From NCBI GenBank assembly GCA_016234115.1, contig JACRHD010000032.1, forward strand, positions 1 to 38,970: a DNA stretch of 38,970 bases, read 5' to 3'. How positions within the stretch are numbered: the first letter of the stretch is position 1; each line of letters opens with the position of its first letter. Source of the DNA: Nitrospirota bacterium (lineage in GTDB: Bacteria; Nitrospirota; Thermodesulfovibrionia; UBA6902). Made by a program: the position numbers and the translations under genes. Of the stretch, positions 20,509-33,626 are shown one piece after another. A model generated the notes under the pieces. That model did not search any database and was not told the origin of the DNA. It saw nothing but the letters and a program-made list of their open reading frames with translations.

Positions 20509-21270
20509 ATGCTAATACGTTATAAAGCCGACCTCCACATCCACACCTGCCTTTCCCCGTGCGCTGAACTTGAAATGACCCCCTCGGACATTGTCGGGAC
20601 CGCCCTTGAAAAAGGAATTAATTTGATCGCGATAACCGACCACAACTCCGCTGAGAACGTCCCTGCGGCCCGGAAGGCCTCGGCAAACACGGATGTGACC
20701 GTATTGGCCGGAATGGAGATATCTTCAGCGGAAGAGGCGCACATCCTCGCGCTCTTCAACGACGTGGAAAGCGTAATGAAGCTGCAGGACATCGTGTATA
20801 AAAACCTGCTGCCGGGCGGCAACGATGAAAAACTCTTCGGAGAACAGATAGTCGTCAACGAAAATAACGAGGTGCTTGGCTTTAACAACCGCCTTTTGAT
20901 AGGGGCGACGACGTTGCCAGCCCAGGACATAGTCGATACCATCCGCTCATTAGGCGGTCTTGCAGTTGCTTCGCATATCGACAGGGAGACCTTCGGCATT
21001 ATATCCCAGTTGGGTTTTATCCCGGAACGCCTGAAATTCGACGCGCTGGAGATATCTCCGAACACCGGGAGGGAACAGGCGGAGTTTATATTCAGCGAAT
21101 ATAAATCATTTGCCTGGGTCACGTCCTCTGACGCTCACGTCATAAAAGATATAGGCAGAAGGACCGTTAATTTCTTCATGAAAGGACCGACGATTGAAGA
21201 AATGGCGCTGGCGTTCAGGAACATGGAGGGGAGAAGGCTGCAGTGGGGGGTGACGCATCAGGGGACCTGA
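20509..21270 (+). CDS. PHP-domain metal-dependent phosphoesterase
   Basis: Protein of 253 residues with a complete PHP (polymerase and histidinol phosphatase) domain. The metal-binding His pair is ADLHIHTCLSPCAE (His10 and His12), followed by AITDHNSAEN, GMEISSAEEAHIL, ASHIDRE and SSDAHVIKDIG. These supply the usual trinuclear metal site, so phosphoesterase activity is expected; the substrate is unknown. The ATG at 20509 is used instead of the TTG at 20488 that lies in a repeat. It is the last gene of the kinase-DRTGG-ATPase-DRTGG-PHP series, and its 3' end overlaps the convergent ABC gene by 13 bp. Confidence 0.88.
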   Translation: MLIRYKADLHIHTCLSPCAELEMTPSDIVGTALEKGINLIAITDHNSAENVPAARKASANTDVTVLAGMEISSAEEAHILALFNDVESVMKLQDIVYKNLLPGGNDEKLFGEQIVVNENNEVLGFNNRLLIGATTLPAQDIVDTIRSLGGLAVASHIDRETFGIISQLGFIPERLKFDALEISPNTGREQAEFIFSEYKSFAWVTSSDAHVIKDIGRRTVNFFMKGPTIEEMALAFRNMEGRRLQWGVTHQGT

Positions 21271-21935
21271 AAACCTTGCCCCATTCTCATCTGCCGTTTG
21301 CACTGCCGGGCAAGCTCTGTGTTGTGGGTGACCATGACAAAGGTGATGCCCCTTTCTTCATTCATCCCCGCAAAGAGCCGCATCATCTCCGCCTCGGTCT
21401 CTTCATCGAGGTCTCCCGTGGGCTCATCGGCCAGAATAAGTCCGGGGTCATTCATGAACGCGCGCGCAATTGCCACGCGCCTCTGCTGGCCTCCCGACAG
21501 TTGAGAGGGATAGGCGTTGACCCTGTCTCCCAGCCCGACCATGCCGAGCAGCTCCACGGCCTTTTTTTCATCCCCCGCCGTTTTATCTCTGCGCGCCTTA
21601 AAGACAACGGGCAGCATTACATTTTCTACAGAAGTAAGGTTCTGAAAGAGGCTCGCGAACTGGAATATAAAGCCGATCTTTTCGCACCTGTACTTTGAAA
21701 GCCGGTCGCCGTCAAGGGAATAAATATCATCGCCTTCAAACAGCACCGTCCCCGAAGACGGCTTTGCGATGCCGCCGATAATGGAAAGCAATGTCGTCTT
21801 GCCCGAGCCGGAATGCCCGACGATTGAAAGAAATTCTCCCTTCTCTATCCCGAGAGATATATCATTTACGGCATCGATCCTGTCGTCTCCGACAAGATAC
21901 GTCTTGGATACGTTCTTAAGGACCAGTTGAGTCAT
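21258..21935 (-). CDS. ABC transporter ATPase, LolD/MacB type
   Basis: ATP-binding subunit of 225 residues with Walker A GHSGSGKTTLL, signature LSGGQQRRVAIARA, Walker B LILADEPTGDLD and switch His (MVTHN). The insertion FQFASLFQNLTSVENVMLP is typical of ATPases working with FtsX-like permeases, often mechanotransmission rather than import. The start at ATG 21935 overlaps the permease stop as ATGA; the upstream in-frame extension is the permease gene read in another frame. The 3' end overlaps the convergent PHP gene by 13 bp. Confidence 0.93.
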   Translation of the reverse strand: MTQLVLKNVSKTYLVGDDRIDAVNDISLGIEKGEFLSIVGHSGSGKTTLLSIIGGIAKPSSGTVLFEGDDIYSLDGDRLSKYRCEKIGFIFQFASLFQNLTSVENVMLPVVFKARRDKTAGDEKKAVELLGMVGLGDRVNAYPSQLSGGQQRRVAIARAFMNDPGLILADEPTGDLDEETEAEMMRLFAGMNEERGITFVMVTHNTELARQCKRQMRMGQGFQVP

Positions 21936-23125
21936 GCCGCGTCTCCTTTGATCACAAAGAGCGGCTCCATCTTCTTTATCCGCTGTATAGGAGCGAGGGC
22001 GCCCGTAATGCATATGCCCGTGCCGGCAGCGAATCCGGCCGCGCCTAAGATCAGGCGGTCCCATACAGTCAGATCGACAGGCAGGTTTTTGAACAGCGTG
22101 AAACTCTTGGCCAGCAGCACGGAAAGCGCGGTCCCCATGACCGCCCCGCAAATGCTGCCGATGCACCCTATGATCAGGACCTCCGTAAGAAACAGCCTCA
22201 TTATGTGCGATTCCCTGGCGCCTAAGGCCCGCATGATGCCCGCTTCCCTGAGCCGCTCGTTGACCGTCGCGGAGAAGATCGCCCAGGCCAGAAGCGCCGA
22301 AAGCACCGACGCCATGAAGACCGTTATCGAGAAAATCATGTTGATGTCTTTGAGGGCGTTTATGGTGTCTTTGCCTATATCCGTCCTTGCGACCACGTCC
22401 GCCTCGACGATCTCGCCCTCTATGGCCCTGCCGACGTTATACGGGTCATAGCCGGATTTGACCCTGACGAATATGATCGAGACCTGGTCCGGTTTCAGGG
22501 GGGACTTTCCCTTCCTCAGGATCTCTTCCACGTTTTCGTCGCTGATGAATATAGCGTTGTCGAGCCCAGTGCCTGATTTTTCGAGGGCGCCGAGGAGCGT
22601 AAATCTGGCGCCGAAGAGAACGGCGTCCATAAGTCCGAGCCCGATGTTGAGGGAGGATTCGTGTCCGACGATAGCCTCGTTCTTCTGCAGCCTGCGTCCT
22701 ATGGCCTTTGTCAGCCACGGCATCACTATGAAATCGCTGTCCTGGTTAAAGGCCACGACGGTCGCCTCCGGGATATCGCAGCACAGGCCCTGGAGGGTGG
22801 CGAGATATGTCTGATACGTCACCTCATCGACCCCTTCGACCTTTTTGACCCTTTCCACAAGGCCCTTGTCCATATAAAAGGACTTTACCTTTGACTCAAG
22901 AAGGACCTCTTCGGCATAACCCCTTGCCCCGACAGGCACGACAATCAGGTCTGAGCCGAGACGGTCCGACGCCCTCTTGATACCCAGGCCCACACTGCCG
23001 ATAAATGAAAACCCGAACACAAGGACGGACACGATCAGGGCAATGGAAAAGGCCAGTACGCCCGTGCGGAATTTTCGTCTCTTTAAATTTTTAATCGCGA
23101 ATGTATGGATGTTGAATGCTTTCAT
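21932..23125 (-). CDS. FtsX-like ABC transporter permease with a CC pair
   Basis: Protein of 397 residues in MacB/LolC topology: one N-terminal helix (about 23-46), a periplasmic domain, and three C-terminal helices including NERLREAGIMRALGARES, the coupling region. The periplasmic domain contains an adjacent Cys115-Cys116 pair (LQGLCCDIPEA). From memory, similar Cys pairs occur in the FtsX-type permeases of P19/FTR-type metal-uptake loci, so a metal or thiol substrate is possible (inference). The ATG at 23125 is preferred over a TTG in the upstream repeat. Operon with the ATPase (ATGA overlap). Confidence 0.88.
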   Translation of the reverse strand: MKAFNIHTFAIKNLKRRKFRTGVLAFSIALIVSVLVFGFSFIGSVGLGIKRASDRLGSDLIVVPVGARGYAEEVLLESKVKSFYMDKGLVERVKKVEGVDEVTYQTYLATLQGLCCDIPEATVVAFNQDSDFIVMPWLTKAIGRRLQKNEAIVGHESSLNIGLGLMDAVLFGARFTLLGALEKSGTGLDNAIFISDENVEEILRKGKSPLKPDQVSIIFVRVKSGYDPYNVGRAIEGEIVEADVVARTDIGKDTINALKDINMIFSITVFMASVLSALLAWAIFSATVNERLREAGIMRALGARESHIMRLFLTEVLIIGCIGSICGAVMGTALSVLLAKSFTLFKNLPVDLTVWDRLILGAAGFAAGTGICITGALAPIQRIKKMEPLFVIKGDAA

Positions 23126-23127
23126 AT

Positions 23128-23192
23128 GAGGGTCAAGGGTCAAGGGGCAAGGGGCAAGGTAGAAAACTGACCCTTGACCCCTGACCCTTGAC
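23128..23192. repeat. Family B2 inverted repeat (GGGTCAAGGGGCAAGG)
   Basis: GAGGGTCAAGGGTCAAGGGG on the left and TGACCCTTGACCCCTGACCC on the right. It lies just upstream of the permease gene and is related to the copy between the divergent promoters at 16558. Confidence 0.8.
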
Positions 23193-23195
23193 CCT

Positions 23196-23234
23196 AAAAA
23201 AGAGCGGGTACCCTATCTTAAGGGCTACCCGCTC
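23196..23234 (-). terminator. Rho-independent terminator after the beta-propeller gene
   Basis: On the minus strand GAGCGGGT ... ACCCGCTC (8 perfect bp, with CCC/GGG extending inside) is directly followed by TTTTTT. It starts 25 bp after the beta-propeller stop, so that transcript should end here and the ABC pair needs its own promoter. Confidence 0.9.
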
Positions 23235-23258
23235 CCTCTAAAAGAATATATTGTACCG

Positions 23259-24371
23259 TTATTTCAGGTTGCCGTCCAGCCCGCAGAGAATGGAGGTTTC
23301 CTTGATTTCCATCTTGCCGTGGCAGGCAACGCAAACAGAGACGGACTTGCCTACGAGTTTCTTCGTGTCCATGTCATAGACCTGGAGTGTGCCGTCGGTT
23401 ATGGTCTTGGACCCTTCCTCAATACCCACATTCACCGGCGCTCTCAAGGTGACGATCGCGTATTTGCCGTCTGGGGTCGGCATGACGTCATGGTTCTCGC
23501 CCGCCGACATCATTTCTTCATCGATGAGCTTGAGTGTCTTTGCGTCAAGGAGGAACATCCTGTCCCCGCCCGACTGCAGCAGATATTTACCGTCTTTTGT
23601 ATAAAACTCCCTGAAGGTTATGGTCTTGCCGGGCTCGCCGGTGATCGTGTTTTTTGCCAGCAGCTTGACCTTGCCGTTTTCAAGCTCCTTGAGGTCGAGC
23701 ATAAGAATATCTATCTTGCCGTTTGGATTTCCGCCCTCCGCGAGATTTATCGCCACCACAAAACTCTTCATGTCCGGGGTGTTCGTCCCGTGAAAGAACT
23801 TGTATCCGCCAGGCTTATAGCCCAGCTCGTTAAGAAATACCCTGTGTTTGTGCTGAAGGTCTTTTTTGTCAAATACATCTATGTAAGCCTCCCCTGCCAT
23901 CACAACGGGTATGTAGGAATTCTTTGTCTGACCCGAGCCGCAGTAAAGGGGGGCCGGGCCTTTGGTCCTTGCGTCGATGTCGATAGCTACGTCCTTTATG
24001 ACGTTCCCGGTCTTTAAGTCGCTTTTGCCGACGTGCACCTTGTTGCCCGGGTCCAGCTTGTATGTAGACCAGAACATCAGGTCCTTGTTGTCCGCGTCGA
24101 TCCTCGGGTCATGGGTCTGATGGGTCGTCTTGTCGCCGATGACGATCCTGTCGAGGTTGTTGACCTTTACAGGCTCTTCAGCATTATTCGGGTCGATTGT
24201 AACATCAGCTTTCGCAAAGTGTCCGCCGTGTCCCGATACATAAAGCGTCCCTGTGTACGTCTTTTTGGAAGCGACGGCTACGCCGGTTTTTGTGTTCATC
24301 GAGGTAAAGGTGAGATAACTGAAAAATGCTATGACCGTCAAGACCGCTGCAATAAGTATTCTCTTCTTCAT
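23259..24371 (-). CDS. Exported beta-propeller protein with C-terminal CXXCH heme motif
   Basis: Protein of 370 residues. Residues 1-24 form a signal peptide or anchor. The body reads as a WD/YVTN-like propeller (HDVMPTPDGKYAIVTLR, TPDMKSFVVAINL, TKDGKYLLQSGGDRMFLLD). Histidine-rich loops (GHGGH, THQTHDPRID, FHGT, ENHD) recall propellers of nitrous-oxide-reductase-like and cytochrome cd1-like proteins, but no known family could be assigned. CVACH at 347-351 is a canonical c-type heme site. The ATG at 24371 has the ribosome binding site GGAGGGA. Probably a periplasmic redox or metal-binding protein. Followed by a strong terminator. Confidence 0.75.
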   Translation of the reverse strand: MKKRILIAAVLTVIAFFSYLTFTSMNTKTGVAVASKKTYTGTLYVSGHGGHFAKADVTIDPNNAEEPVKVNNLDRIVIGDKTTHQTHDPRIDADNKDLMFWSTYKLDPGNKVHVGKSDLKTGNVIKDVAIDIDARTKGPAPLYCGSGQTKNSYIPVVMAGEAYIDVFDKKDLQHKHRVFLNELGYKPGGYKFFHGTNTPDMKSFVVAINLAEGGNPNGKIDILMLDLKELENGKVKLLAKNTITGEPGKTITFREFYTKDGKYLLQSGGDRMFLLDAKTLKLIDEEMMSAGENHDVMPTPDGKYAIVTLRAPVNVGIEEGSKTITDGTLQVYDMDTKKLVGKSVSVCVACHGKMEIKETSILCGLDGNLK

Positions 24372-24464
24372 TTAGTCCCTCCGTTTGGATATATATTTTT
24401 TCCGCTGAAAAACAACTCAATCCGTCCGTACTGAAAAAAGTTTTGTCCACCACCCCCTTTTAAA

Positions 24465-24499
24465 AAAATTTGAAATTTGAAATTTCAAATTTGAAATCT
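24465..24499. repeat. Family C AT-rich palindrome
   Basis: AAAATTTGAAATTTGAAATTTC and its complement AAATTTGAAATC, same words as at 11722 and 13579 (shown in part). Part of the 380-bp gene-free stretch 24372-24751, which otherwise holds only the family A element below. Confidence 0.75.
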
Positions 24500-24539
24500 T
24501 GGTTCTTCAGGCTTTCCTGTGAAAAAGCATATATTAACC

Positions 24540-24707
24540 GTCATTCCCGAAGTTTTAATCGGGAATCCAGCTCCTTAAGAAGCAATTGCTTCCGCCTTTC
24601 CGCTCTTTAAGTGCCCATCTTCTTGAACAAACTTTATTATCATCTACTCTTTTAAAAGAAAATCATTTATATCCACTGGATTCCCGCTTACTGACTGCGG
24701 GAATGAC
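24540..24707. repeat. Full-length family A element (about 168 bp)
   Basis: Ends GTCATTCCCGAAG / CTGCGGGAATGAC enclose an AT-rich centre (ACAAACTTTATTATCATCTA, CTTTTAAAAGAAAAT). Positions 24611-24707 match 35304-35391 closely with a few indels. It has the look of a non-autonomous mobile element with inverted ends; no coding capacity. Confidence 0.83.
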
Positions 24708-24751
24708 GGTGCTTACCCGCACAATTCCCGGAAGAACCGAAATCTTAAGTC

Positions 24752-25228
24752 CTAATGGTGCATATGCATCTGCGTGTCCGCACCCCCGAGCTTGACATCG
24801 ACCTGCTTCTCTCCGGACTTCTCAAACAGCAGGACCAGCCTGAATTCAGAGCCTTCCTTTATGTCTTCAGGCATTTTGAATATCATTATGTGAAGCCCGC
24901 CGGGCTTCAGCTCGACCGCATCCGCCGGAGGTATGCGCAGCTTCTCTTTCCTGAACATCTTCCCGTTTTCGGTGTCGTGGATCTCGACGATTGCCGACGG
25001 GACGTCCACCCTGGCCCCCACAAGTGTGTCCTCGGCTTTTCCGGTGTTGGATATCTTCATGAAGACGGACACGCTCCCCACGATTACCCTCGACATCCTG
25101 GCCTCCGGCGCCTCAATTTTTATCTGTGGAAATCCCGGCGCCGAGCCCATACCCAGGGCCGCGCCGCCGGGCATGACTGCAAACATAAACACAACTAACG
25201 ATGCTGCAAACGTTTTAATAGAATTCAT
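24752..25228 (-). CDS. PCu(A)C-like periplasmic copper chaperone
   Basis: Protein of 158 residues with a signal peptide (MNSIKTFAASLVVFMFAVMP). The mature part matches the PCu(A)C/DUF461 cupredoxin-like fold: EIHDTENGKM supplies the first His and a Met, and ELKPGGLHIMIFKM supplies the conserved HxM. The spacing between the first His and Met is shorter than the usual motif. The tail ends QMHMHH, an extra His/Met metal site. This family delivers Cu(I) to cytochrome oxidase CuA or other copper sites. Upstream of the heme-motif propeller on the same strand, which suggests a shared metal or redox role. ATG 25228 is used; a GTG at 25255 is possible. Confidence 0.85.
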   Translation of the reverse strand: MNSIKTFAASLVVFMFAVMPGGAALGMGSAPGFPQIKIEAPEARMSRVIVGSVSVFMKISNTGKAEDTLVGARVDVPSAIVEIHDTENGKMFRKEKLRIPPADAVELKPGGLHIMIFKMPEDIKEGSEFRLVLLFEKSGEKQVDVKLGGADTQMHMHH

Positions 25229-25306
25229 GGCCCTGAGCCCGGCCACTGATTTCACGGATTTGCGCTCCTCGCTATGCCGCCCGTGGCCGATTGCTTATCT
25301 TCGGAT

Positions 25307-27787: not shown

Positions 27788-29182
27788 TCACATCGTTAAA
27801 GCGGCCCTGACGCGCCTTGCGAGCTCTTTCACTTCATTGTCCTGTACAGTCCTTGCGTCAAGGAGAAGGGCGTTGTCTTTGATCCTCCCGATCACGGGCG
27901 GATCGCCGAGCCTCAGTCTTTTTTCCAGCTCGTTTACAGAGATGTGCGAGGGCCTGATTGACACGGCAAAGGTGGGAAAATTGATTTCCGGCAGGGAGCC
28001 GCCGCCCGCCTGGGATTCATCCGGCACGACTTCCATCCCCGGCTGACCGGAAATATCTTTTTTCAGGGATGAAAGTATCTTCTTCGCCCTGGTCTTTATT
28101 TCATCCGCGGTCTCAGTCAGCATCCGGACCGTCGGGATCTCTTTTATCGCCTTTTCTTCATCGAGATACTGCATGAACGTCGCCTCAAGCGACGCTAATG
28201 TCATCTTGTCTATCCTCATCGCCCTCATCATGGGGTTTTTCTGGATCACGGATATCAGTTTTTCTTTGCCTATTATAATGCCCGCTTGGGGACCGCCGAG
28301 GAGCTTGTCGCCGCTGAAGGTAACTATGTCGGCCCCTGTCCTGACGACTTCCTGCACCGAAGGCTCGCCTGTGACTCCGTATTGCGCAAGGTTGATCATG
28401 CTGCCGCTTCCCAGGTCGGCGACGACCGGTATCCTGTAATCCTTCCCTATCTTCGCCAGTCTTTCAAGCGGCACCTCTTCCGTAAAACCGATCACCCTGT
28501 AATTGCTCTGATGCACCTTGAGCAGGAGCGCAGTGTCCCCGCACAGGGCGTTTTCATAATCGGCCGGATGTGTCTTGTTTGTCGTCCCGACCTCTCTCAG
28601 TATCGCCCCGCTCGCCTTCATCACCTCCGGTATCCTGAAAGAGCCTCCTATCTCCACGAGCTCCCCCCTCGATACGATCACCTCTCTCCCCCTGGCAAAG
28701 GTGTCCAGGCACAGCAGCACGGCCGCGGCGTTGTTGTTTACCACAACCGAGTCTTCGGCGCCGGTCAGTTCCCTTATGATGTCCTTTATGTGAGAATACC
28801 TTTTGCCCCTCCTGCCTGTGGAAATTTCATATTCGAGGTTCGTATAGCTCCGGGCAGTGGATATTACGTGATCGAGGGCCTTTTCAGAAAGGAGCGACCT
28901 GCCGAGATTGGTATGTATGACGATCCCTGTGGCATTTATCAGGGGCCTGAGTTTGTAAGAGGACAGCTTCCTGACAACAGATTCAATATCATGTGCAATG
29001 GCCTCCACCGATACGTCGGAAGCTGCGCCGTCCAGTATTCCCTTCCGTCTCGAGTCAATGACCTCCCGGACGGCGCGAAGGACTGTCTTCCTTGGAAATA
29101 AATCAAGCAGGCCCGTCCCGAACGGACTCTTCAGACATTCATCGACGGACGGCAATTGAGAGAGCTGCTCCCGGATTGTCAT
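27788..29182 (-). CDS. selA: L-seryl-tRNA(Sec) selenium transferase
   Basis: PLP enzyme of 464 residues that turns Ser-tRNA(Sec) into selenocysteinyl-tRNA using selenophosphate. The PLP lysine is Lys293 in TFSGDKLLGGPQAG. Other family stretches are INATGIVIHTNLGRSLLSEKAL (in part), NNNAAAVLLCL and HQSNYRVIGFTEEV, plus the C-terminal LRLGDPPVIGRIKDNALLLD (in part). Length is typical. The organism therefore very probably makes selenoproteins. selB and selC are not in the window and no selenoprotein could be identified in it. Confidence 0.97.
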   Translation of the reverse strand: MTIREQLSQLPSVDECLKSPFGTGLLDLFPRKTVLRAVREVIDSRRKGILDGAASDVSVEAIAHDIESVVRKLSSYKLRPLINATGIVIHTNLGRSLLSEKALDHVISTARSYTNLEYEISTGRRGKRYSHIKDIIRELTGAEDSVVVNNNAAAVLLCLDTFARGREVIVSRGELVEIGGSFRIPEVMKASGAILREVGTTNKTHPADYENALCGDTALLLKVHQSNYRVIGFTEEVPLERLAKIGKDYRIPVVADLGSGSMINLAQYGVTGEPSVQEVVRTGADIVTFSGDKLLGGPQAGIIIGKEKLISVIQKNPMMRAMRIDKMTLASLEATFMQYLDEEKAIKEIPTVRMLTETADEIKTRAKKILSSLKKDISGQPGMEVVPDESQAGGGSLPEINFPTFAVSIRPSHISVNELEKRLRLGDPPVIGRIKDNALLLDARTVQDNEVKELARRVRAALTM

Positions 29183-30200: not shown

Positions 30201-33200
30201 CTACCTCCTCGACCAGTTATTAAGGCAAAACTGGTTGGCGCACTTTGCAACCTTGAGATCATCAAATGTATCGTCAAAATAAGCAATAACCGGCAGGCCG
30301 TCCGTACCTATCGTGATTGAGGTGTATAAGCCCACATCTACTGCGGAATCCACGGTGATGATAGTATTTCCGTAAGAACAGGAGACATTACCGCATTTTG
30401 CGATCTTAAGATCGCCGCCTGATGAGTAACGATAAGAAATAATGGGTAGCCCGTCTGTTCCTATTGTGATTGAAGTATAAAGACCCACGTTTCCTGACGA
30501 ATCCACTGTAGTGATAGTATTGCCGGAAGAACAGGATGCATTGCCGCACTTGGCAACTTTAAGATCATAGTTTGTACTATCATAGTAAGAAATTACCGGC
30601 AGACCGTCCGTACCTATTGTGATTGATGTGTAATATCCTACATTTCCTGACGAATCCATTGTAGTGATAGTATTGCCGGAAGAACAGGATGCATTGCCGC
30701 ATTTGACGACTTTAAGACCACTGCCCAGGTAAGCAACAATCGGCAAGCCGTCCGTCCCTATCGCGATTGACGTGTTCGCACCGCCATAATTAGAGGCATA
30801 GTAATCTACTATGGTGATTGTATTTCCGGACGAACAGGATGCATTCCCGCATTTAACGACTTTAAGACGAACAGATAAGTCGTCCAGTGTATCATAATAA
30901 GAGATAATCGGCCGGCCATCTGTTCCTATAGTGATTGACGAGGCAATACCGGCCCCACTCCCAAACCAACTATCAACTCCGGGGTCTACCGTGTATAAAG
31001 TGTTTCCGGAAGAACAGGATGCATTGCCGCACTTCGCAACTCTAAGATCGGTCTCCATTACATTCAAGTACGAAATAACGGGCAGGCCGTCTGTCCCTAT
31101 TGATATTGATGTGTACCATCCGACTTCGCCATAGTCAGTATCAATATTTGGTGTTATAGTGTTTCCTGATGAACAGGATGCATTGCCACATTTAACAACC
31201 TTGAGATTATAGTTTGTTGCATCATAGTAAGAAACAACCGGTAGGCCGTCTGTCCCTATTGTCATTGATGTATCCCGCCCGACATCTCCAGCAGAATCCA
31301 CGGTCCAGAGAGAGTTGTTGCGTGGATTCTGGGAAGGCGGTGTTATAACGGCGCTCCCTGTAACAATAAAATTACCCGCAACCTTGACATTGCCGTCAAA
31401 GTATCCTGCATAGCCCGTCTGCGCATTATTCTTCCCGTATACACCTATGCCGGTCGAACCGGCTGCCAGAAAATATCCGCCGTAATTTTTGTAATCACCG
31501 GCATAAGATGCCTCGCCATATATGCCTTTGCCCCATGGGCCTGACGCATAGCCTGCGACGGCTGACGCGGTCGATCCGGTCGAAAAGCCCCTGACGCCGC
31601 TGGCTTGCTGGCCGGATGCCGAGCCTGCAACCCCTGCGCTTGAGAAGCCGTTCGAAACAAAGTAGCCCCCATAATTATTTTCATACCCTGTATTGGACGC
31701 TTTGCCGTAAACGCCGTGACTGTTTGTACCCGAGGCCTCGAAGTATCCTCCATGCCCTTCTCCGGTATTTGCTCCCCTGATTATTCCCCCGGTATCTGCG
31801 CCGCTGAGATCAAGAGGCACATTCAGATTAAACGTCAGCCCCGACAAGTTCAGCCCTGTGCCGGCCGCATATGCATTGCCGTCATCCGTCTCACATACAA
31901 CAGTTCCGTCTTCGTTAATCACCCGAATACTGCTGCCCACTATGCAGGAACTGCTGAGGCGTCTTTGAAGATACGTCGTGTCGGCCTGGAGCGTGACGTC
32001 TCCGCTTGTTCCCCCGCCGGTTAATCCTGTCCCATGATTGACACCCGTGATATCGCCCCCCGCGCTTGCGGAGGCCTGAATCGTTCCGTCAGGGAACTTG
32101 ATCCCACCGCTCGTGGATTCGATAGTGCCGGCAACAGAAAGCTTCTGTGCAGGACTCGTAGTGCCGATACCGACATTGCCCGCGTCATTAATGAACAACC
32201 GGGTGCTATCCGCTGCCATATCTGTGAAAGAGAGATTGTTGAGACCATAACCTCCTGCGTCGGTGAAGATCGACCACTTGGGTGAATTGTTGTGCTTAAA
32301 CTCAATTGCCGACTGTAATGTGCCGGTTTGTGTATTAAGAGAGATAGATGGATTCTGGCCTTCAATGAGCAACGTCTTGCCTGCTATATGAAGGTTTGCC
32401 GCCGGAGTCGTCGTCCCTATGCCGACTTTGCCGTTAACAGTAAGTGTATCAGCGCCGAAATCTCCGTAGATCAGTGGTACAGAGGTGGTTGAATTGTCTA
32501 TATAAAGCTTGTTGGAGCCGGTCTCATTATATCCTGCATTATCCCCGATAAAAACATTGCCGGAGCCAGTTGTATTAGACAAGCCTGTCTGTCTTCCTAT
32601 GAATGTATTCCCGCTGCCTATGGTATTGGCAAAGCCTGAGGATTTTCCCACGAATGTATTAGAACCGCCCGTGGTGTTTGAAGAGCCTGCACTATTTCCC
32701 AAGAATGTGTTCTCAGGGCTGGTAGTATTCGAATAGCCTGCGCCAGTGCCTACAAATGTGTTGAAACTGCCCTCGGTGTTTGCACGGCCTGCATCACTTC
32801 CCAAAAATACATTGGCCCTGCCTGTAGTGTTGAAATTGCCTGCCTGACGCCCTGCAAATGTATTATTATCACCACTGCTATTGGATTGGCCGGTGCCGCT
32901 TCCCAGGAATGTGTTACCGCCTGCTGTATTGTGATTGCCCGCTCCATATCCTATGAACGTGTTTTCATGAGCAGATGTATTGAAACCACCCGCAGCGCTT
33001 CCTAAAAACGTATTGTAAGAACCTGATACATTGGCTCCGCCCGCTTTACTTCCTACAAAAGTGTTGAAATTGCCGTCTGTATTTAAACTTCCCGCACTGG
33101 GTCCTATAAATGAGTTTGATCCGCCGGTAGTGTTTGAGTCGCCGGCATTTTCTCCTACAAATATGTTTGTACCTGTTGTGTGTGTATGCCCTGATGTCGC

Positions 33201-33626
33201 AAACGCAGACGCATGCTGGCCGTCAACCGTGTCTGTATCGTCAGCTTCTTTTGCCCTCATCGCATACGGCACGCCTGTCAATTGCTGTCTCGGCGTCATC
33301 TCGCTGTCCGCCACGACCTGAATGCCGAGATAATATTGTTCGTTAAACAAAAGATTGATCGGATTTACTGAACCGAGGACAACATTATACATTCCATTGC
33401 TCACGTGCACATTCACCTGCGTCTCTGTCCATAAGACCGCGCCCCCGGCCGAGACATTGTAAATCCTGAATGTCATCGATAAAGTGCCATCCACCGGATT
33501 GCCTCCCGCATCCGTCAGATACCCCTGATAGTTGACCGTCTGCGGTACCGCTGAATGTCCGACCACTGCAAGTGCAAAAAGCAAAGCTGTTGCCGCGATG
33601 AAAAAAATCCCTGCTGACGCCTTCAT
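30201..33626 (-). CDS. Large secreted repeat protein with NxFxG repeats and a seven-repeat C-terminal domain
   Basis: Protein of 1141 residues. It has a signal peptide (1-25), then an N-terminal domain (PQTVNYQGYLTDAGGNPVDG...) found on many cell-surface and tail-fibre-like proteins. Thirteen repeats of about 20 residues with NTFxG..AG..NTTG follow (roughly 152-375), suggesting a beta-roll or beta-helix. Two GIGTT.PA..L.VAG elements come next, then GVYG/GGYF repeats. The C-terminal 370 residues have seven repeats of about 45-50 residues: TSITIGTDGLPVISYYD then CGNASCSSGNT. These fit a seven-bladed propeller with a Cys pair per blade. A strong AAGGAGGT lies 9 bases before the ATG at 33626. Likely extracellular adhesin or matrix protein. 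Confidence 0.85.
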   Translation of the reverse strand: MKASAGIFFIAATALLFALAVVGHSAVPQTVNYQGYLTDAGGNPVDGTLSMTFRIYNVSAGGAVLWTETQVNVHVSNGMYNVVLGSVNPINLLFNEQYYLGIQVVADSEMTPRQQLTGVPYAMRAKEADDTDTVDGQHASAFATSGHTHTTGTNIFVGENAGDSNTTGGSNSFIGPSAGSLNTDGNFNTFVGSKAGGANVSGSYNTFLGSAAGGFNTSAHENTFIGYGAGNHNTAGGNTFLGSGTGQSNSSGDNNTFAGRQAGNFNTTGRANVFLGSDAGRANTEGSFNTFVGTGAGYSNTTSPENTFLGNSAGSSNTTGGSNTFVGKSSGFANTIGSGNTFIGRQTGLSNTTGSGNVFIGDNAGYNETGSNKLYIDNSTTSVPLIYGDFGADTLTVNGKVGIGTTTPAANLHIAGKTLLIEGQNPSISLNTQTGTLQSAIEFKHNNSPKWSIFTDAGGYGLNNLSFTDMAADSTRLFINDAGNVGIGTTSPAQKLSVAGTIESTSGGIKFPDGTIQASASAGGDITGVNHGTGLTGGGTSGDVTLQADTTYLQRRLSSSCIVGSSIRVINEDGTVVCETDDGNAYAAGTGLNLSGLTFNLNVPLDLSGADTGGIIRGANTGEGHGGYFEASGTNSHGVYGKASNTGYENNYGGYFVSNGFSSAGVAGSASGQQASGVRGFSTGSTASAVAGYASGPWGKGIYGEASYAGDYKNYGGYFLAAGSTGIGVYGKNNAQTGYAGYFDGNVKVAGNFIVTGSAVITPPSQNPRNNSLWTVDSAGDVGRDTSMTIGTDGLPVVSYYDATNYNLKVVKCGNASCSSGNTITPNIDTDYGEVGWYTSISIGTDGLPVISYLNVMETDLRVAKCGNASCSSGNTLYTVDPGVDSWFGSGAGIASSITIGTDGRPIISYYDTLDDLSVRLKVVKCGNASCSSGNTITIVDYYASNYGGANTSIAIGTDGLPIVAYLGSGLKVVKCGNASCSSGNTITTMDSSGNVGYYTSITIGTDGLPVISYYDSTNYDLKVAKCGNASCSSGNTITTVDSSGNVGLYTSITIGTDGLPIISYRYSSGGDLKIAKCGNVSCSYGNTIITVDSAVDVGLYTSITIGTDGLPVIAYFDDTFDDLKVAKCANQFCLNNWSRR

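Follow-up and report, generated by a model that had tools for sequence, protein, structure and literature searches.

A candidate periplasmic copper propeller and its linked CC-type FtsX/LolD transporter in Nitrospirota

What does a propeller protein of no named family do between a copper chaperone and an ABC transporter? The question is raised by contig JACRHD010000032.1 of a Nitrospirota bacterium (assembly GCA_016234115.1), analysed over its stretch of 38,970 nucleotides and here called the window. A gene for such a propeller (PROP) lies there between genes for a PCu(A)C-type chaperone and for an FtsX-like permease with a LolD-type ATPase. The initial annotation had described chaperone, propeller and FtsX/LolD pair as a row on one strand and had proposed a copper- or haem-dependent redox protein with its delivery and maturation machinery. 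The row is as described, all on the minus strand, with the ATPase gene lying past the end first drawn for the cluster. The reading slightly favoured by sequence and context is that PROP is a periplasmic copper, possibly copper-haem, redox enzyme working in the manner of thiocyanate dehydrogenase (TcDH) or nitrous oxide reductase (N2OR, NosZ) and matured by a dedicated FtsX/LolD pair. The features are as follows.

24752-25228, minus strand: PCu(A)C-type periplasmic copper chaperone with a Sec-type signal (PF04314; ATG at 25228, stop at 24752)
24537-24710, no strand: inverted-repeat element between the PCu(A)C and PROP genes, resembling a miniature inverted-repeat transposable element (MITE) or repetitive extragenic palindrome (REP), with 17-nt and 15-nt inverted arms
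23259-24371, minus strand: PROP, a 370-amino-acid propeller with an N-terminal signal or anchor and six predicted blades (open reading frame, AlphaFold model, conservation)
23319-23333, minus strand: CVACH (CxxCH, residues 347-351) in the last D-to-A loop of PROP (sequence, conservation)
23283-23285, minus strand: Cys363 of LCG in PROP, just before the closing C-terminal strand at residues 365-369 (49 of 49 relatives, model)
21932-23125, minus strand: CC-type FtsX-like ABC permease (PF02687; ATG at 23125, alternative start TTG at 23143)
22778-22783, minus strand: Cys115-Cys116 in the predicted periplasmic domain of FtsX (sequence, conservation)
21258-21935, minus strand: LolD-type ABC ATPase whose ATG overlaps the FtsX stop (PF00005)

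PROP, FtsX and LolD are tightly linked across Nitrospirota. Of 295 Nitrospirota genomes sampled, 55 match PROP at E ≤0.001 (39 of these below 1e-60); they belong to the window's class and one other class. Among 55 close propellers, 51 have more than 1 kb of sequence downstream; FtsX follows in 43 of the 51, FtsX and LolD both in 40, and the Cys-Cys pair is present in 42 of the 43 permeases. Distant propellers (n=22, a group in which one or more, such as L121, are truncated close members) are followed by CC-type FtsX in 16 of the 21 cases with room. Seen from the transporter side, 290 genomes hold 82 CC-type FtsX genes (E ≤1e-60) in 65 genomes, split by score into 38 with at least 567 bits and 44 with less than 247. 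PROP adjoins 37 of the 38 high-scoring orthologues, and the last one sits at base 173 of its contig. The 44 others neighbour a PROP-like gene (14), a distant-type propeller (19), TcDH (2), a contig end (2) or no propeller (7). Over all 82 genes, 72 adjoin a propeller of one of these three kinds, 3 are at contig ends and 7 are without. The possibility that the neighbours would prove unlinked in relatives is thus not borne out. Neighbour family names come from Pfam scans of representatives. The profiles behind the counts of genes following PROP and TcDH, and behind the distant-type neighbours of FtsX, derive from the very loci counted, and high scores of members are thus built in. Five loci (L005-L009) were excluded from the neighbour counts and from part of the conservation counts, those of 18 chaperone and 44 FtsX sequences among them, as duplicates of L062, L075, L063, L092 and L076, and the typed list of FtsX and PCu(A)C neighbours omits fragment rows of the PROP matches (G170:C75, the second piece of G048, G125:C290 and G128:C81). 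A separate scan of genome_contigs gave nine PROP relatives, all in metagenome-assembled genomes named Nitrospirae, Nitrospiraceae, Nitrospira or Thermodesulfovibrionales; it depends on exact short peptides and cannot settle the spread beyond the phylum. A plasmid search for PROP found nothing.

Linkage this close, together with the existence elsewhere of CC-type FtsX without a propeller, would also fit PROP as an accessory or sensor subunit of FtsX/LolD with a structural metal only, the transporter doing general envelope work. This is very improbable: PROP occurs without FtsX in L062, L064, L068 and L071, and one subtype (L030, L032, L033) carries SCO1 and PCu(A)C in its place.

The permease belongs to the FtsX family (PF02687, E=2.3e-19, 70.1 bits against a cut-off of 25.5), and the ATPase matches PF00005 (E=2e-34), its best NCBIfam match being LolD at 228.8 bits, below the cut-off of 307.75. 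By NCBIfam the permease is not LolC or LolE (35.9 bits against 439 for LolE, 34.2 against 362.45 for lolCE). Its AlphaFold model is too poor for detail (predicted local distance difference test, pLDDT, 69.5; predicted template modelling score, pTM, 0.54), and on this low-confidence model the best Foldseek matches are LolE, MacB and HrtB. The Pfam domain and these matches make it similar to the permeases of LolCDE, MacB and HrtBA; it differs from them in the paired Cys115-Cys116, in a conserved Trp137 and Cys372, and in its linkage to a propeller. The cysteine pair, which the initial annotation had pointed out, is invariant in 9 FtsX sequences and kept in 0.98 of 44.

PROP itself appears to be an undescribed periplasmic propeller outside the named Pfam and NCBIfam families. 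Its single Pfam row has an E-value of 0.096, below that family's cut-off, NCBIfam gives no match, and searches with a 49-member alignment against both return scattered weak rows only. It had been called unassigned before and stays so; no match to a known non-metal family was found in these collections. Matches of the single PROP protein to PDB sequences are designed Pizza propellers, one short match repeated, and mean only that the protein is a propeller.

Twelve residues are invariant in the 49 close relatives: H51, H87, W101, C144, M158, H194, R254, H294, C347, C350, H351 and C363. The motifs that had first drawn attention (GHGGH, THQTH, ENHD and CXXCH, here CVACH) are all present, and their residues are largely invariant, with exceptions among the histidines. 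The second His of GHGGH (H51), the second of THQTH (H87) and the His of ENHD are kept in 49 of 49. The first His of GHGGH (position 48) is His in 13 and Met in 36, and the first of THQTH (H84) is kept in 44, with Tyr in the other 5. H113 is kept in 45 of 49. The distant type, about 30-45% identical to the close type over parts and joined to it by profile comparison at 99.9%, keeps a GGH, CxxCH, two Met and a last Cys in 15 of 15 members, and likewise two Cys and two His where inner strands begin. A 709-amino-acid relative at L099 5539-7668 is without C144 and C363 and is perhaps a changed or fused form.

The AlphaFold model of PROP, made with ten sequences (pLDDT 85.5, pTM 0.82), has 24 strands: three N-terminal, five sets of four and one C-terminal. 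This suggests a six-bladed propeller closed by the last strand, and neither the model nor Pfam indicates any further domain. In propellers generally, the D-to-A and B-to-C loops lie on one face. By their positions in sequence and predicted strands, the invariant candidate ligands fall in or beside these loops. In structure comparison (VIA) TcDH (Z 21.3, 285 residues, 3.6 A) and N2OR (Z 20.4, 275 residues, 3.9 A) are among the upper rows. Ordinary propellers rank first, led by nidogen at Z 26.1, and therefore the fold alone is no pointer to copper.

Copper is favoured as the PROP metal from its gene context, because three unrelated copper-chaperone families adjoin PROP and the same FtsX/LolD type stands behind TcDH. 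The initial annotation had left copper and haem side by side; of the two, copper is the one that these neighbours favour. Within 6 kb of the 55 close propellers PCu(A)C occurs 20 times, NosL 9 times and SCO1 3 times, with any one of them near 27; a copper-chaperone gene is also near 8 of the 22 distant propellers. The window's chaperone is a clear PCu(A)C protein (PF04314, E=2.6e-23, 82.4 bits against a cut-off of 29.4) and the only PF04314 match in the source genome, which also holds one PROP and one close FtsX orthologue; genome searches found no NosL, NosZ or TcDH there. Its ligand positions H93, M100, H122 and M124, numbered from a GTG at 25255, are kept in 18 of 18 relatives. The QMHMHH tail, singled out earlier, is present and poorly kept by comparison, with His columns at 0.33-0.44 of the 18 sequences. 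Among 290 Nitrospirota genomes 34 carry PCu(A)C genes, 36 in all, and 19 of these genes lie within 3.5 kb of a propeller. Of the four genes whose co-occurrence was to be checked, propeller, FtsX and LolD go together; PCu(A)C is an optional partner, because it is near just 20 of the 55 close propellers.

An FtrD-like lipoprotein is found near 13 of the 55 close propellers. In L120 and L109 an extended cluster comprises propeller, FtsX, FtrD-like lipoprotein, TPR lipoprotein, LolD, a small open reading frame, NosL and a second FtsX, with a Sulf_transp (PF04143) gene ahead of the whole.

The metal could instead be the iron of haem: PROP would then be a c-type haem propeller, that is a cytochrome, with the CC-type FtsX/LolD pair tied to haem handling as in HrtBA. 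The cytochrome c motif CxxCH is present in all 49 close and all 15 distant relatives, the haem exporter HrtB is among the Foldseek rows for FtsX, and the Cytochrom_D1 profile is touched by 13 of the 15 distant members. The generic LolE and MacB outrank HrtB on the poor FtsX model, though, the genes recurring beside PROP are for copper and not haem, and a third invariant Cys (C363) is unusual in cytochrome c. This reading is accordingly improbable. Cytochrome cd1 in particular was rejected, just 4 of 49 close members touching PF02239 (best E 0.023).

TcDH and its gene cluster are among the known systems closest to PROP. TcDH is a copper enzyme according to PMC5328954 and PMC9456337, and in Thioalkalivibrio its gene is followed by those for four ABC subunits (PMC5328954). 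A search of open-licence full texts found no paper assigning a role to the permeases behind TcDH. On a Methylocella tundrae plasmid an FtsX match comes right after a gene (L136 4043-5887, product annotated as uncharacterised) that encodes a homologue of solved TcDH (E 1e-157); this homologue has Gln at one of the TcDH His positions. In Nitrospirota, TcDH homologues (46-48% identical) occur in 6 of 290 genomes (L150-L155), five with FtsX directly behind. FtsX is the next gene at 6 of the 7 TcDH loci, scoring 219-305 bits with the FtsX profile made here, and LolD comes next in 5 of these 6, the contig ending at the sixth. Cys-Cys is visible in the FtsX of L151, L152, L154 and L155 and lacking in that of Methylocella. 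Propellers of about 400 amino acids with weak TcDH similarity over the C-terminal part were also seen in several Nitrospirota (L144-L149).

Profile comparison links the distant type to TcDH at 96.7% (E 4e-10) and the close type at 78.7%. The distant type has C137, C178, H222 and H277 each placed 7 residues ahead of the blade Asp. The corresponding distance in the TcDH alignment is 7 for H447 and H548 and 6 for H502, and the pair H594-D595 matches H277-D278. The hhalign alignment has a gap near C137 and sets C178 one residue off H502, so that those two correspondences come from offsets and not columns. TcDH H447, H502 and H548 are presumably copper ligands; a hint is the entry of mutant H447Q of Pelomicrobium TcDH, which has a different numbering and falls at one of these His. 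The offset match is a matter of sequence positions, and in close and distant PROP it is partly to Cys or Arg in place of His. PROP is similar to TcDH as a periplasmic propeller with conserved His at blade positions that match by sequence and, in Nitrospirota, CC-type FtsX and LolD directly downstream. It differs in having six predicted blades where TcDH has seven, Cys and Met mixed with His, the CxxCH motif and a Sec-type signal. Membership of TcDH was rejected: neither phmmer nor a profile search of the PDB with PROP found solved TcDH, and a TcDH query had no match in the source genome.

The NosZ system offers a second parallel, in which a propeller with copper-binding His is served by the ABC transporter NosDFY and the copper chaperone NosL, a role described for NosL in PMC6530538; NosL also recurs near PROP relatives. 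Against the seven-His CuZ site of NosZ, PROP has an invariant His and Cys ring, and profile comparisons to NosZ gave 12.5% and 72.6%. Where NosZ loci have NosDFY, the PROP cluster has FtsX/LolD, and no FtsX was seen at the NosZ loci of three Nitrospirota genomes (L156, L157, L159). PROP was rejected as a NosZ by score: the nos_propeller family PF18764 has no match in PROP or in the source genome, and the C-terminal CuA cupredoxin domain is absent from its 370 residues by Pfam and model. Lactonase-type, clade III NosZ (NF052460, cut-off 700 bits) is touched by 15 of 15 distant relatives (best E 1e-13; 39.1 bits for the first distant member) and weakly by 2 of 49 close ones (best E 3.8e-4), with no match in the window's PROP. 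This assignment was likewise rejected, the scores being far below cut-off; PROP also differs in being without a cupredoxin domain, and no NosDFY was seen beside it.

Propellers may also carry metal without catalysis. The main rival is that PROP is a carrier like AztD, which would bind copper or some other metal and pass it to a recipient, while FtsX/LolD moves the metal or a ligand. AztD is described in PMC6689063 as a periplasmic propeller zinc metallochaperone with zinc sites in its pore and a link to an ABC transporter. PROP resembles it in being a periplasmic propeller with conserved His (pore ligands in AztD) and a neighbouring ABC system, and its soft ligands, Met among them, would fit a carrier too, as would the copper chaperones nearby. 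AztD has eight blades and binds zinc, and it partners a solute-binding-protein importer, not an FtsX/LolD pair (PMC6689063). TcDH, behind which this FtsX type is also found, is an enzyme, and the many ligands kept round one face would seem to exceed a simple carrier's need. The carrier reading is on these grounds unlikely. AztD was not among the PDB profile-search matches or structure-comparison rows for PROP, an absence that does not exclude likeness.

Several observations weigh against a copper enzyme with its own maturation pump. The close-type PROP profile reaches N2OR at only 12.5%, and nidogen, an ordinary propeller, matches PROP as well as or better than TcDH and N2OR. YVTN propellers match the distant profile at E 2.1e-26; the profile link to TcDH is thus not specific, and therefore a likeness of working is claimed, not membership. 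TcDH and N2OR have seven blades and His as site residues, whereas PROP has Cys and six predicted blades. Eight of the 51 close propellers with room downstream are without FtsX, and 28 of 55 have none of PCu(A)C, NosL and SCO1 nearby. COX1-family genes are present in the source genome, and the client of PCu(A)C could be a haem-copper oxidase instead. Finally, the CC-type FtsX of Treponema, Acetoanaerobium and Fusobacterium adjoins DUF4418 or DUF4418-like genes (so annotated in Treponema and assigned by eye for Acetoanaerobium and Fusobacterium), with no propeller seen there. Because of this, the CC-type FtsX pump probably has a wider chemistry, copper propellers being one client. A literature search found no published account of the DUF4418 and FtsX pairing. 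Campylobacter Cj1660-Cj1661 is a similar DUF2318/FtsX iron system.

In the scheme that is slightly favoured, a copper redox enzyme, the copper, the catalysis and the maturation step are all what we infer. The chaperone PCu(A)C, or NosL or SCO1 in relatives, would bring Cu(I) to PROP, as known for these families. In PROP, His, Cys and Met would be the ligands that hold copper at one end of the central tunnel, as conservation and the predicted fold suggest, and haem on CxxCH would perhaps serve as an electron relay. The enzyme would act on a small molecule in the manner of TcDH or N2O reductase. From its linkage, CC-type FtsX/LolD may use ATP for a step of site assembly or activation, whether by supplying metal or sulfur, by thiol chemistry or by release, and its periplasmic Cys pair may move or activate something needed by the site.

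The rest of the window adds a few observations. The gap between PCu(A)C and PROP is only about 110-130 bp in close relatives by coordinates, so the inverted-repeat element at 24537-24710 is probably an insertion. CGGGAATGACGG-like sequence occurs in 18 copies in the window against 4.25 expected (≤2 mismatches), and further inverted repeats with CGGGAATGACGG ends, MITE or REP-like, are found elsewhere in it. The PROP-FtsX intergenic region 23129-23195 has AGGGTCA-type repeats, direct and inverted. At 27788-29182 lies a gene for SelA, L-seryl-tRNA(Sec) selenium transferase (NCBIfam 618 bits), from which the source organism probably makes selenoproteins. A 1141-amino-acid open reading frame at 30201-33626 weakly matches NF053851, a chimeric fibre-protein N-terminal domain, at 33.7 bits, below cut-off. 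A link of the cluster to the upstream AsmA-like gene was dropped, as no such family recurs among the relatives' neighbours.

A broader and more tentative proposal, possible but held with some doubt, is that PROP represents a new class of copper or copper-haem six-bladed redox propeller, with a His/Cys/Met site closed by CxxCH...C and assembled by a CC-type FtsX/LolD machine to which TcDH, too, owes its trinuclear copper site. If true, copper sites would be assembled by pumps of two kinds, NosDFY and the hitherto unrecognised CC-type FtsX/LolD. The shared transporter type makes the role of the ABC subunits behind TcDH testable. N2O reductase and TcDH, which oxidises thiocyanate, are both copper propellers. 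A separate conserved propeller of metal type that comes with a pump and chaperones of its own points towards a redox reaction not yet recognised in Nitrospirota, a phylum active in the nitrogen and sulfur cycles of the subsurface.

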